This document shows, piece after piece, positions 29,220 to 59,360 of a DNA stretch of 64,000 nucleotides. Position numbers and translations under genes: made by a program. Within the stretch, counting starts at the first letter, position 1. Every line of letters begins with the position of its first letter. Source of the DNA: Chryseobacterium sp. Bi04 (GTDB taxonomy: Bacteria > Bacteroidota > Bacteroidia > Flavobacteriales > Weeksellaceae); contig NZ_CAKKLP010000001.1 in NCBI RefSeq assembly GCF_918698085.1, positions 186,001 to 250,000 on the forward strand. The letters are read 5' to 3'. The notes beneath the pieces were generated by a model. It worked only from the letters and a program-made list of their open reading frames with translations. It made no database searches and was not told the DNA's origin.

Positions 29220-29293
29220 TCCTCCTTAGCTCAGTTGGTTAGAGCATCTGACTGTTAATCAGAGGGTCGCTGGTTCGAGCCCAGCAGGAGGAG
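29220..29293 (+). tRNA. tRNA-Asn (GTT)
   Basis: 74 bases fold as a cloverleaf. Acceptor TCCTCCT pairs with AGGAGGA, the D arm carries AGCTCAGTTGGTTAGAGC, the anticodon stem CTGACT/AATCAG encloses GTT, and the T arm has GGTTCGAGCCC. A genomic CCA follows at 29294-29296. It is identical in sequence to the gene at 30975. Confidence 0.96.
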
Positions 29294-30974: not shown

Positions 30975-31048
30975 TCCTCCTTAGCTCAGTTGGTTAGAGC
31001 ATCTGACTGTTAATCAGAGGGTCGCTGGTTCGAGCCCAGCAGGAGGAG
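30975..31048 (+). tRNA. tRNA-Asn (GTT), second copy
   Basis: Identical over 74 bases to the gene at 29220. Here the bases after the discriminator G are CAA rather than CCA, so CCA must be added enzymatically. About 10 upstream bases and the terminator downstream are also conserved between copies. Confidence 0.96.
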
Positions 31049-31282: not shown

Positions 31283-31376
31283 CGAACTTATAGGGAATAA
31301 TAATTTTTTCTATTTTTTTTCTATTTTTTGAATAAACTGCATACTTTTTGTTTGTGATAATTGCTTGAAGAAACGA

Positions 31377-33908
31377 ATGATGTTAAACAATAACCCTAAA
31401 CACAATTTTTTATTTTTTTTCCTGCTTTTTACCAGCTTTTCGTTGGCTCAAAATAGAGTAAGCGGAAGAATTGTTGATGAAAAAAATAACAAAGAGCTTA
31501 ATCAAGTTGATATCTTTATCAATGACAATAAAACTCCGGCGCTTACCACGACTTCCGGAAGCTTCGTTATTCAGTCTGATAGTATTATCATCATTACATT
31601 AAAATTTTCCAGAAAAAATTATACTTCCCAAACCCTGGAGGTGACTCCTGCCACCGCTGAAAATATTTTTGTACAGCTATCACAGGCAAAGGTGAGCAGT
31701 ATTCAGGAAATTGTTATCAATACCGGGAAAACCAAATACAAAAGCAAAAAAGAAAATCCTGCGTATGCTATTATGCAGAAAGTCTGGGCACGTAAAAGAA
31801 ATAATGGGCTAGAAAAGTTTGATACGTATTCATATAAGGAATATGAGAAGACCCAATTCGACCTTAATAATCTGGACAGTACATTTATGAAGAAAAAAAT
31901 CTTCAATAAGCTGGATTTTATCTTTGATTATGCTGATTCTACAGCAAGTGGCAGATTAGGACTTCCCATCTTTCTAAATGAAGCTGTTTATGAAAACTAT
32001 GGTAAGAATAAACCCGAAAAAGACTCTAAAAGAACACTCGTTGCTCAAAAGACTTCAGGGTTTCAGGATAATCAGGTCATCACCGTTTCAGCAAAGAACC
32101 TTTACCGTGAAATCAATATCTACGATAATACACTTAATTATTTCGATATAGGATTTCAAAGCCCTGTAGGATCAGACGGTTTCAGTACCTATGATTACAG
32201 CCTTGTAGATACTATTGCTATCCGCGGGGAGAAAGCTTTCCATATAAGGTACCAGCCTAAAAGAAAGGACATCCTGGCTTTCCAGGGGAATCTTTATATA
32301 GACACAGATACCTATGCTGTTATAGGAGCTACTTTAAAATCAACACAAAAAATAAACGTCAATTTTGTCAATAGTGTTTCCACCCAGCTGGAATATGACA
32401 ATCCTGATGAAAACACATTCCTACCTAAAAAGCTGGTTACAGAATTCGAAATAAGTCCTTTTTCAAAAAAGAAAGGATCTAAAAGTATTATTGCTAAAAG
32501 ATCTGTAGATTATTCAAATTACGAATTCAATAAACCTCTGGACCCAGCTGTATTCAAGAGAAAAGAAGAAGAATACGAAGACGAGTTTGTCAAAAAAGAT
32601 GATGCCTATTGGACGAAAGCCAGGCCTGACACATTATCCAAATCTGAACAAGGGGTTTACAACATGCTTGATCAACTTCAGCAGACTCCAAAATTCAACC
32701 GAATGGTTAAATTATTTGAAACCCTGGGCTCCCGTCATTACAATGCCTTTAAAGGGGTAGATATCGGTCCTATTTTTTCGATATACGGAAGAAATAAAGT
32801 AGAAGGAGACAGAATAAGACTGGGTGCAAGATCTTATTTCGGATTAAACGATACGTGGAGAGTACAGTTTTATACAGCATATGGATTTAAAGATCAACAA
32901 GTAAAATATGGTGTTGACGCCAGGTATATGTTCAATAAACTTAACCGGTTTATGATAGGAGCAGGAACCAGCAGGGATATTGCTCAGCTGGGAGGACAGC
33001 TGACCAGTGGAGACGGCCTGACAACCGGTCCGCAATCCACCTCTACATTCTTTGCAAGAGGTGAAAATAATTCTTTAAGCTCTGTAAATCAAACCAGAGT
33101 ATTTGCAGCCATTGAACCCTGGAAAAACATACAATTCAGAGTTGATGGGGTAATGCAAAGTATTAAATCTGCTAACCTGGAGCTCTTTAATCTAATGTAT
33201 TACAAAGACGGAAACTTAAGAAAAACAGTCAATGACTCTCATGTTACCTTCAGTATAATAGCAAAACCGGGAGCTAAATTTTCCCAGACAGGAATAGACC
33301 GATACCAGGCAAGAAACCTTGCCCCAACCATCGTTTTACGCTACACAAGGGGAATCGAGGGCCTTTTCAATGCTGATTTTAATTACGATAAGCTTCAGTT
33401 TATGCTTTCCAAGCCATTCCTTATCGGAACTATAGGTAAAACGATTGTCAATCTTGAGGCCGGAAAAAACTTTAATACCGTTCCGCTGGCATTGCAGAAT
33501 ATAATCCCGGCTAACCTTTCCTATGGATTGGTTCCCAACACTTTTTCACAGCTTAATTACTATGAATTCGTAGCCGACGCTTATGTTACCCTTAACCTTG
33601 AGCATCATTTTAACGGAAAAATACTTTCTTACATCCCATTGATCAAGAAATTAAAATTTAGAGAAGTTGCTTTTATCAGAGGAGCGTACGGATCATTAAG
33701 TGATGAATCTAAAGCGATCAACGTAGAAGGATTCAAATATTCTGCTCCCAATGAACATATCTATTATGAGTATGGATTTGGAATTGAAAATATTGGAATT
33801 GGAAACCTTAGAATTTTTAGAGTTGATTTCAACTGGCGAGGAAATTATCTGGACAGACCGGATATCTCAAAATTTGATATTAAAGCAGGATTTCAATTTG
33901 GATTTTAA
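31377..33908 (+). CDS. DUF5686 outer-membrane protein with carboxypeptidase-like domain
   Basis: About 843 residues. After a signal peptide (ending SLAQ) comes a carboxypeptidase-regulatory-like beta-sandwich (NRVSGRIVDEKNNKELNQVD, to about 110), then a DUF5686 domain and a C-terminal beta-barrel ending FDIKAGFQFGF, which has a terminal Phe typical of outer-membrane proteins. The ATG at 31377 is used; the frame is also open from a TTG 12 bases upstream. The family is common in Bacteroidota and of unknown function; it is not a TonB receptor because no plug domain is seen. Confidence 0.86.
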   Translation: MMLNNNPKHNFLFFFLLFTSFSLAQNRVSGRIVDEKNNKELNQVDIFINDNKTPALTTTSGSFVIQSDSIIIITLKFSRKNYTSQTLEVTPATAENIFVQLSQAKVSSIQEIVINTGKTKYKSKKENPAYAIMQKVWARKRNNGLEKFDTYSYKEYEKTQFDLNNLDSTFMKKKIFNKLDFIFDYADSTASGRLGLPIFLNEAVYENYGKNKPEKDSKRTLVAQKTSGFQDNQVITVSAKNLYREINIYDNTLNYFDIGFQSPVGSDGFSTYDYSLVDTIAIRGEKAFHIRYQPKRKDILAFQGNLYIDTDTYAVIGATLKSTQKINVNFVNSVSTQLEYDNPDENTFLPKKLVTEFEISPFSKKKGSKSIIAKRSVDYSNYEFNKPLDPAVFKRKEEEYEDEFVKKDDAYWTKARPDTLSKSEQGVYNMLDQLQQTPKFNRMVKLFETLGSRHYNAFKGVDIGPIFSIYGRNKVEGDRIRLGARSYFGLNDTWRVQFYTAYGFKDQQVKYGVDARYMFNKLNRFMIGAGTSRDIAQLGGQLTSGDGLTTGPQSTSTFFARGENNSLSSVNQTRVFAAIEPWKNIQFRVDGVMQSIKSANLELFNLMYYKDGNLRKTVNDSHVTFSIIAKPGAKFSQTGIDRYQARNLAPTIVLRYTRGIEGLFNADFNYDKLQFMLSKPFLIGTIGKTIVNLEAGKNFNTVPLALQNIIPANLSYGLVPNTFSQLNYYEFVADAYVTLNLEHHFNGKILSYIPLIKKLKFREVAFIRGAYGSLSDESKAINVEGFKYSAPNEHIYYEYGFGIENIGIGNLRIFRVDFNWRGNYLDRPDISKFDIKAGFQFGF

Positions 33909-33920
33909 TACGATACAAAT

Positions 33921-33956
33921 AATCCGCAGCTTCTCCGAAGCTGCGGATTATTTTTT
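33921..33956. terminator. Strong bidirectional terminator
   Basis: AATCCGCAGCTTC pairs with GAAGCTGCGGATT (13 bp) around TCC. T or A runs lie on both sides, so it can end the DUF5686 gene and the minus-strand peptide cluster. Confidence 0.9.
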
Positions 33957-34026: not shown

Positions 34027-34200
34027 CTAGTCAAAACATTCCGACAAGGTGCATGGCTCAGAAAGCATACAGTTTGACTGCTGCCATGAGTTCCATCTGC
34101 ACCACTCAAAACATGATTGAAACATAGAAGGGCACGTTGCCGCGACTTCTCCACTTATTTCCTTTAAACTCTTTTTAGTTAATTTTTTCAGATTCTTCAT
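34027..34200 (-). CDS. Six-Cys peptide with double-glycine-type leader, copy 3
   Basis: 57 codons. The leader MKNLKKLTKKSLKEISGE resembles those of its two neighbours but ends Gly-Glu instead of Gly-Gly. The core has Cys at 23, 30, 34, 44, 50 and 55, with the shared spacing C-P-x5-C-x2-W-C-x9-C. The shared leader, spacing and tandem placement make it a real gene despite its size. Similar Chryseobacterium ORFs are labelled bacteriocin-like. The changed cleavage site may mean slower or no processing. Confidence 0.78.
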   Translation of the reverse strand: MKNLKKLTKKSLKEISGEVAATCPSMFQSCFEWCRWNSWQQSNCMLSEPCTLSECFD

Positions 34201-34241
34201 TTCAATGCATTAATGGTTAAATCATTTATATGGTCAGCCAG

Positions 34242-34406
34242 CTAGCACACACAAGGCTCTTCATAAGTATTGGTGAGACAGTGTATTTTCTGCCATGCAC
34301 TCCATCCGCACCATACACTGCAAGAACTTGTGATAGGCGGGCATTTTTCTGTACCTCCCTGAATTACTTTCAAATTCTTCTTTGTCAGTTTTCTTAGATT
34401 TTTCAT
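34242..34406 (-). CDS. Six-Cys peptide with double-glycine leader, copy 2
   Basis: 54 codons. The leader MKNLRKLTKKNLKVIQGG carries a proper Gly-Gly site at 17-18. The core of 36 residues has Cys at 22, 29, 33, 43, 52 and 54, with KCPPITSSCSVWCGWSAWQ at its start. Six spaced cysteines suggest three disulfides in an exported peptide. Family knowledge says Gly-Gly leaders are cut by C39 peptidase ABC exporters; none is in the window. 26 bases separate it from copy 1. Confidence 0.8.
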   Translation of the reverse strand: MKNLRKLTKKNLKVIQGGTEKCPPITSSCSVWCGWSAWQKIHCLTNTYEEPCVC

Positions 34407-34432
34407 TTGAATGTATACTGATGGTTATGGTA

Positions 34433-34600
34433 TTAATTACATGAACAAGACTGTTCTACATAGAATATACAACGAAATTTCTCCAGTGGAGATAACCCAC
34501 ACCATACGTCGCAAGATCTGATAGGTGCCTGAGGGCATGACCCGGCTCCACCATTAATTGCTTTAAGACTCTTTTTTGTTAATTTTCTTAGATTTTTCAT
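34433..34600 (-). CDS. Six-Cys peptide with double-glycine leader, copy 1
   Basis: 55 codons, first of the trio from the promoter side. Leader MKNLRKLTKKSLKAINGG; core with Cys at 22, 30, 34, 44, 52 and 54. The motif SCDVWCG matches SCSVWCG of copy 2. The first four spacings are almost the same as in copies 2 and 3, while intervening residues differ strongly, as expected of a scaffold with varied loops. Antimicrobial, signalling or anchoring roles are all possible. Confidence 0.8.
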   Translation of the reverse strand: MKNLRKLTKKSLKAINGGAGSCPQAPIRSCDVWCGLSPLEKFRCIFYVEQSCSCN

Positions 34601-34674
34601 GTTAATTAGTTTTATTTTTTGCCTACTCTATATGCTTTTCGGCTTCCGCAATTAACTTATTGTATGACATTTAA

Positions 34675-34682
34675 CAAATATA
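34675..34682 (-). promoter_or_regulatory. -7 promoter element of the six-Cys peptide cluster
   Basis: TATATTTG on the minus strand, an exact TAnnTTTG, lies 74 bases before the ATG of copy 1 (34600). A TTG occurs about 15 bases further upstream. One transcript probably covers all three peptides to the terminator at 33921. Confidence 0.55.
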
Positions 34683-34784
34683 TAAATATTTCACAAGCAA
34701 TAGAATATTAATCAAAATATTTTTACTCCCCCAGAAAAAATATTGCCCTGGCCCTATTTCCCAGGATGCAACAAAACAAAAAAA

Positions 34785-34806
34785 CCTCAGCAAATGAATG
34801 CTGAGG
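34785..34806 (-). terminator. Terminator of rplU-rpmA
   Basis: CCTCAGCA pairs with TGCTGAGG around a 6-base loop. On the minus strand it is followed by seven T. Confidence 0.85.
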
Positions 34807-34834
34807 CTTAATTTTTTATAAAACGCTTAAGTTA

Positions 34835-35092
34835 TTATGCGTTTGCTTCTACAGATACAAAAGATCTGTTGTTTGCTTTCTTTCTGAAAACTACTTTACC
34901 ATCTATTAGTGCAAACAAAGTGTGATCTTTACCGATTCCCACGTTATCACCTGGGTGGTGCTGAGTACCTCTTTGTCTAACAATAATATTTCCGGCAATA
35001 GCTGCTTGTCCTCCGAAAATCTTCACACCTAATCTTTTAGAGTGAGACTCTCTACCGTTCTTGGAACTACCGACTCCTTTCTTGTGTGCCAT
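34835..35092 (-). CDS. rpmA: 50S ribosomal protein L27
   Basis: An 85-residue protein with [24 protein letters not shown] at its start (shown in part: [14 protein letters not shown]), followed by [16 protein letters not shown] and the VVFRKK end. No N-terminal cleavable extension of the Firmicutes type is seen. It lies 12 bases downstream of rplU in the usual operon. Confidence 0.98.
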
Positions 35093-58842: not shown

Positions 58843-59001
58843 ATGAAAAATTTAAAAAAACTAAGAAAAGACCAGCTGAAAAGTATTTCCGGAGCAGGAA
58901 TCAAACTTCCGGAGCCTGAATTTTGTATGTATTACTGTAATGGTACTGTCATCTGTGCAGGCTGCAGTGATGATTTCAAATGTCCGGACGACTCAATGTA
59001 A
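58843..59001 (+). CDS. Small Cys-containing peptide with double-glycine-type leader, A
   Basis: 52 codons. The leader MKNLKKLRKDQLKSISGAG shares the consensus of the trio at 34 kb but has Gly-Ala at the cleavage site. The core has Cys at 28, 32, 38, 41 and 47 (FCMYYCNGTVICAGC then KCPDDSM). It has its own terminator at 59031. It was too short for standard ORF calling but is supported by the leader, spacing and its neighbour. No exporter is adjacent. Confidence 0.75.
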   Translation: MKNLKKLRKDQLKSISGAGIKLPEPEFCMYYCNGTVICAGCSDDFKCPDDSM

Positions 59002-59189: not shown

Positions 59190-59360
59190 ATGAAAAATTT
59201 AAAAAAACTGAGTAAAGAGAAACTGAAAAGTATTTCTGGAGGAATAAGCTATCCTTTTCCCGGAGACTGCTTCTATGTATGTAGCGACGGAATAACGTAT
59301 AAGGAATTGTGCAGGGCAGAGTTTATCTGTCCGGATGGTGAACAACCTGTTATCTATTAG
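59190..59360 (+). CDS. Small Cys-containing peptide with double-glycine leader, B
   Basis: 56 codons. Leader MKNLKKLSKEKLKSISGG with a proper Gly-Gly site; core with four Cys at 27, 31, 41 and 47 (DCFYVCSDG, then LCRAEFICPDG). The C-x3-C and later CPD match peptide A, so A and B are a second, related family. Separate promoter and terminator suggest independent expression. Confidence 0.78.
   Translation: MKNLKKLSKEKLKSISGGISYPFPGDCFYVCSDGITYKELCRAEFICPDGEQPVIY

Follow-up and report, generated by a model that had tools for sequence, protein, structure and literature searches.

A tandem array of six-cysteine peptides with double-glycine leaders in Chryseobacterium sp. Bi04, its DUF805b RNA and its likely partner locus elsewhere in the genome

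The array and its transcription unit

In the window (the whole stretch of 64,000 nucleotides of Chryseobacterium sp. Bi04 that was analysed), a preliminary description made from the sequence alone had reported three tandem minus-strand ORFs with a common leader and a six-cysteine core. This is confirmed here by the features summarized in Table 1. The ORFs are separated by 26 and 41 bp, and their products share a leader of 18 residues that starts MKNL[RK]KLTKK and is followed by a core of 36-39 aa with the arrangement C-P-x(5,6)-C-x2-W-C-x9-C and two late cysteines. When the three copies were aligned, the six cysteines matched and the W-C pair was invariant. The calculated charges of the three cores were about -0.3, -1.6 and -3.3, and the calculated masses of the oxidised, unmodified peptides were about 4092.7 Da (copy 1) and 4085.6 Da (copy 2). 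The structure predicted for the core (AlphaFold2, 81 cores) had a pLDDT of 79 and two short helices, and its comparison with the folds in the PDB yielded no match. Sequence matches of the core to transferrin and secretory component, at E values of 0.08 and above, were discarded as chance.

Table 1. Features of the array and its flanks (positions in the window)
Feature	Position	Strand	Remarks
DUF5686 / CarboxypepD_reg-like protein	31365..33908	+	conserved downstream boundary of the array
Terminator hairpin	33917..33953	.	17 pairs, T-runs on both sides; separates the array from the DUF5686 gene, which is convergent to it
Copy 3 ORF	34027..34200	-	six-Cys core in a precursor of 57 aa; cleavage site Gly-Glu
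Copy 2 ORF	34242..34406	-	54-aa precursor; Gly-Gly leader and six-Cys core
Copy 1 ORF	34433..34600	-	55-aa precursor; 18-aa Gly-Gly leader and six-Cys core AGSCPQAPIRSCDVWCGLSPLEKFRCIFYVEQSCSCN
DUF805b cis-regulatory RNA (RF02914, clan CL00115)	34620..34652	-	array 5' UTR; 44.5 bits, gathering score 35.6
Proposed DUF805b pseudoknot, 3 pairs	34641-34643 with 34621-34623	-	covariation
Proposed DUF805b hairpin, 4 pairs	34648-34651 with 34632-34635	-	covariation
-7-like box TATATTTG	34675..34682	-	begins 82 nt before the first ATG
rpmA terminator	34782..34809	-	separates the array transcription unit from rpmA
rpmA (ribosomal protein L27)	34835..35092	-	tBLASTn in relatives, name from sequence; conserved upstream boundary

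The cleavage site is Gly-Gly in copies 1 and 2 and Gly-Glu in copy 3, the latter being doubtful as a site for a C39 peptidase. The Gly-Glu of copy 3 had been pointed out before, correctly, and it is unusual: no other was found among 135 distinct peptides of the family, 125 of which carry Gly-Gly. Since the orthologue of copy 3 in C. rhizosphaerae also has Gly-Gly, copy 3 may be processed poorly.

With the rpmA terminator upstream and a strong hairpin before the DUF5686 gene, the trio probably forms its own transcription unit. The single -7 box and the single downstream terminator already described were both recovered, and each of the 73 distinct array starts examined was preceded by the box (versus 18% of shuffles), which lay between -76 and -86 in almost every case. 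Only 2 of these 73 upstream regions had a textbook -33/-7 promoter; most of them had no TTG at the usual -33 spacing, and thus the array promoter is not of the textbook Bacteroidetes type. The 5' UTR block as a whole was conserved across array loci. The microRNA matches returned by the Rfam search corresponded to the terminator hairpin, fell far below their gathering scores and were rejected. Two tRNA genes with the same Rfam score lie on the plus strand upstream of the DUF5686 gene, at 29220-29293 and 30975-31048, some 1.7 kb from each other.

Conservation of the array and of its leader family

The three leaders scored 28.4, 26.8 and 24.5 bits (copies 1 to 3) against NCBIfam NF047798 (leader_Chryseo, "bacteriocin-like protein"), all above the cut-off of 23.5, so that the kind of leader is already known; no Pfam or NCBIfam model in the libraries searched covers the six-cysteine core. 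The whole genome contained 25 leader matches above the same cut-off and, when weaker matches were included, about 31 short ORFs with such a Gly-Gly leader, nearly all of them with Cys-rich cores of unrelated sequence. Two more leader_Chryseo peptides with other Cys-rich cores are encoded in the window itself (58843-59001 and 59190-59360, plus strand). Across the genus, the leader family was present in 160 of 173 genomes. The literature searched gave no account of an exporter or of a control for peptides with this leader.

Relatives of the array were detected by a BLAST-type search in 132 of the 173 genus genomes, although some weak matches may represent the leader only, and a profile search of the Weeksellaceae gave matches in 145 of 320 genomes and 2 of 33 genera, the named ones being Chryseobacterium and one Weeksellaceae MAG. 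The nearest relative of copy 1 was in C. rhizosphaerae KCTC 22548 (95% identity). In nearly all Chryseobacterium loci read, the array, usually of 1-4 copies, was located at one and the same place, flanked by rpmA and the DUF5686 gene. Exactly six cysteines were found in 129 of the 135 distinct peptides, with the W-C pair nearly invariant. The pattern that collected this set itself demands several of the six cysteines, and independent support therefore comes from the BLAST and array lists, which were gathered without it. As the leader is above a curated cut-off and members of the family turn up throughout the genus, the array is more than a chance arrangement, and both the leader and the cysteine spacing proved to be conserved in related species.

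Eight paralogue types recurred across species, and their core pN/pS ratios of 0.12-0.26 show that they behave as translated genes under purifying selection. Between copies 1 and 2 and their C. rhizosphaerae counterparts, the core differences amounted to a pN of 0.019 and 0.037, respectively, with a pS of about 0.5. The loops of the cores had been described as varied. They do differ from one paralogue type to the next, but the individual types are conserved across species and, therefore, the array is not a hypervariable set. A mobile origin of the array was set aside, since searches of plasmids and phages for the array family found no match. In four loci (L120, L140, L141 and L164), 1.3-2 kb of extra DNA separated the copies from each other or rpmA from the first copy.

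The DUF805b RNA in the array leader and elsewhere

The region first described included the 5' UTR, but its main regulatory feature, a DUF805b RNA, had gone unrecognised. This RNA, presumably named after DUF805 genes, reached its gathering score at 34 of the 40 loci that were scanned, among them one (L135) other than the rpmA site. It was present in 172 of the 173 genus genomes, usually in several copies, and in 36 of the 90 genera sampled in the order Flavobacteriales. Among the best 30 matches in the genus, 18 stood shortly before the start codon of a Gly-Gly-leader-type peptide, with 42-50 nt from the CCGAAAA block to that codon, and the others preceded 197-aa, caspase-like, tail-collar and secreted proteins. 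In the host genome, three of the six over-threshold copies preceded leader peptides, for which the probability by chance is about 6e-6 if a genome of 4,600 genes is assumed, about 31 of them of this kind. In genomes devoid of the leader family, the RNA stays before DUF6520 and other genes. The literature searched, which did not cover the original description of the RNA, made no mention of a DUF805 RNA.

Two further contexts of the RNA were observed. A conserved 197-aa protein of no known family regularly followed it in the genus (L245, L247, L250, L252, L259, L260, L262, L265 and L266). At L293 (contig C15:78882), it preceded a 61-aa ORF (MSKKLTKKLTLKKEKLSQLNSDEMKSVKAGK...) that had no Pfam match and resembles Bacteroidota lanthipeptide precursors.

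Concerning the structure, the Rfam printed alignment displays the hairpin alone, and covariation in our comparison of 35 distinct elements supports an H-type pseudoknot in addition. The hairpin plus the pseudoknot (N-C-C with G-G-N') formed in 95.1% of the cells, with 62 double changes observed versus 19.7 in shuffles, and the pairing collapsed when slid by one column (slid controls, 15-49% paired). The pattern with which the elements were gathered fixes CCGAAAA and GAGTAGG, so that two of the pseudoknot pairs could not vary; the third takes the forms G-C, U-A, C-G and A-U and was Watson-Crick in 100 of the 107 elements of a larger set, against an expected 44%. Thermodynamic folding of the UTR was unremarkable (z -0.49) with a tool that cannot model pseudoknots and, thus, the structural case rests on covariation.

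We tentatively put forward that the DUF805b RNA, as a small pseudoknot riboswitch or a protein-binding site, might coordinate a regulon that is dispersed in the genomes of Flavobacteriales and comprises exported peptides as well as secreted proteins. The disulfide peptides of Chryseobacterium, served by one VKOR-C39-HlyD machine in trans, would belong to it. If this were true, the peptides led by the RNA would be released together on one cue. The array could offer a handle on decoding the DUF805b RNA, and the RNA would be the most consequential part of the work if its control of these genes were confirmed.

Candidate export machinery, possible functions and comparison with known systems

The preliminary description had placed the partners of the array elsewhere, and the whole-genome search bears this out. 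Neither a C39 transporter nor a thiol oxidoreductase was found near the array, and the genome contained three full C39 ABC transporters plus one weak match. One of the full transporters (730 aa) lies on another contig (C19), in a locus with the order VKOR-thioredoxin fusion (502 aa), short ORF, C39 ABC transporter and HlyD adaptor. It is known that VKOR proteins form disulfides in other bacteria. The fusion was detected in 162 of the 173 genus genomes (E 1e-20), and this locus tracks the leader family: 159 genomes had both leader and fusion, ten neither, one the leader only and three the fusion only. The Fisher p value of 6e-13 carries no correction for relatedness and, the 173 genomes being related, overstates their independence, so that the co-occurrence may partly reflect clade history. 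The leader-only genome (G069), with four leader matches and neither C39 nor the VKOR fusion, is the single clear exception. The fusion-only genomes were G030 (weak), G089 and G138, and an array peptide that scores under the leader cut-off was present in G089. A fair proportion of the relatives read encoded a Gly-Gly-leader peptide between VKOR and C39, which ties the leader to the machine. These sequence comparisons indicate that the VKOR-thioredoxin/C39 ABC/HlyD locus is the likely partner of the array. A further proposal, that the N-terminus of the VKOR fusion is a dead leader-binding C39 domain, was not supported by profile comparison, in which the alignments were shallow.

The host ORF in the slot between VKOR and C39 (L080, 7759-7938, contig C19) encodes 59 aa and is a decayed relative that has lost the Gly-Gly. 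Together with the singular Gly-Glu of copy 3 and with the in-frame stops found in array copies of some relatives, this would fit an array in decay, made of leftover genes that are no longer processed. We regard this as very improbable: copies 1 and 2 are intact, their core changes with respect to C. rhizosphaerae are mostly synonymous, and the promoter box and the RNA element are conserved.

The two other full C39 transporters could share the export work. That of contig C24 belongs to a cluster (L082, 3816-11607) with an outer-membrane-efflux-like protein, an HlyD-like adaptor and a Gly-rich protein of 254 aa whose C39-like similarity is weak. That of contig C22 lies directly beside a radical SAM/SPASM maturase (both within L081, 14623-19671), and three Gly-Gly-leader peptides are encoded on the same contig, roughly 12-15 kb from the pair. 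This proximity (about 13 kb), together with the fact that Chryseobacterium makes graspetides and that RiPP precursors often contain GG motifs (PMC8939145), raises the alternative that the cores are enzyme-modified RiPPs, for instance by this maturase. We consider it unlikely, as no RiPP modifying enzyme was recognised by eye in the ORF list of the window, the genus-wide partner locus has an oxidase and not a modifying enzyme, and the maturase scored below every listed equivalog cut-off.

We believe, with a confidence a little above even, that the best explanation as a whole is an antagonistic peptide array that is exported in trans, disulfide-bonded and controlled by an RNA. The small exported peptides would form a family that spans the genus and of which the trio is one local array. 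This array would have a promoter of its own, and the DUF805b pseudoknot in the mRNA leader would probably switch its expression in answer to a signal. The C39-peptidase ABC transporter of the VKOR locus would recognise and cut the Gly-Gly leaders, the VKOR-thioredoxin fusion would make three disulfides in the cores of roughly 36-39 residues, and the HlyD adaptor would complete the export path. The same machine would also serve many other Gly-Gly-leader, Cys-rich peptides of the genome. Once outside, the peptides would most likely act on neighbouring bacteria as bacteroidetocins do, with no linked immunity gene. Extracellular antagonism is the leading reading by virtue of the peptide anatomy and of the bacteroidetocin precedent, and on this analogy we hold it as the most likely function, with moderate confidence.

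Two features argue against antagonism: the cores are neutral to acidic, unlike those of most membrane-active bacteriocins, and such strong conservation within each type is not what an arms race usually leaves behind. Signalling or self-directed roles are therefore possible, in which the same machine would export and bond peptides that serve the producer or its kin as signals, envelope-associated peptides or protease inhibitors, and we grant this reading a definite but minor share of the probability. The low core pN/pS, the near-fixation of the array at one chromosomal site in the genus, the lack of plasmid or phage matches and the presence of the DUF805b RNA before secreted proteins that are not toxin-like, such as DUF6520, are consistent with it. 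However, no receptor or sensor gene is linked to the array, roughly 31 different cores per genome exceed the known sets of signalling peptides, and the cores have no fold or sequence relative among inhibitors.

The preliminary interpretation is thus upheld in the main, and three results are added to it here: a likely partner locus, selection acting on the cores, and the DUF805b RNA. Peptides annotated as "bacteriocin-like" are now tied to a candidate locus for export and disulfide formation, and one array is tied to an orphan cis-regulatory RNA. In this way, the role of the Cys-rich peptides, their route out of the cell and the cue of the DUF805b RNA become testable in a single genus.

Among the existing models, NF047798 spans the 18-residue leader alone and is silent on core, array, exporter and RNA. 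The leader of NF047792 (CCPGW putative bacteriocin) is similar to those of copies 1-3, but only the leader region aligned and the scores (16.9-20.1 bits) were far from the cut-off of 80. Similarly, two copies scored 12.7 and 13 bits against Bacteriocin class II (PF10439; gathering score, 27.1), and copy 3 had no match. Chryseoviridin and other graspetides of Chryseobacterium have multiple tandem precursors (PMC8939145) and thus share with the array both the genus and the tandem arrangement; however, their loci carry an ATP-grasp ligase beside the precursors, and none was recognised near the array. A likeness also exists with the bacteroidetocins of Bacteroidetes, which have a Gly-Gly leader, a C39-type ABC transporter, a thiol oxidoreductase and no immunity protein (PMC6671954), and whose target is BamA (PMC8546649). 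Bacteroidetocins kill Bacteroidota, with resistance that maps to BamA. Bd-A and Bd-B have four cysteines and a leader of 15 aa, with about 42 aa in the mature peptide. The array resembles them in the Gly-Gly leader, the candidate C39-type ABC transporter and thiol oxidoreductase, the Cys-bearing mature peptide of about 40 aa and the lack of an immunity gene, and it is from this likeness that antagonism is proposed here. In contrast to the leaders of 15-16 residues and the four cysteines of bacteroidetocins, the array has a leader of 18 residues and six cysteines; its candidate exporter and oxidase are in trans, the oxidase being a VKOR-thioredoxin fusion, and there are many peptides per genome. 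Finally, the DUF805b RNA, for which covariation supports an H-type pseudoknot, here precedes arrays of putatively exported peptides.
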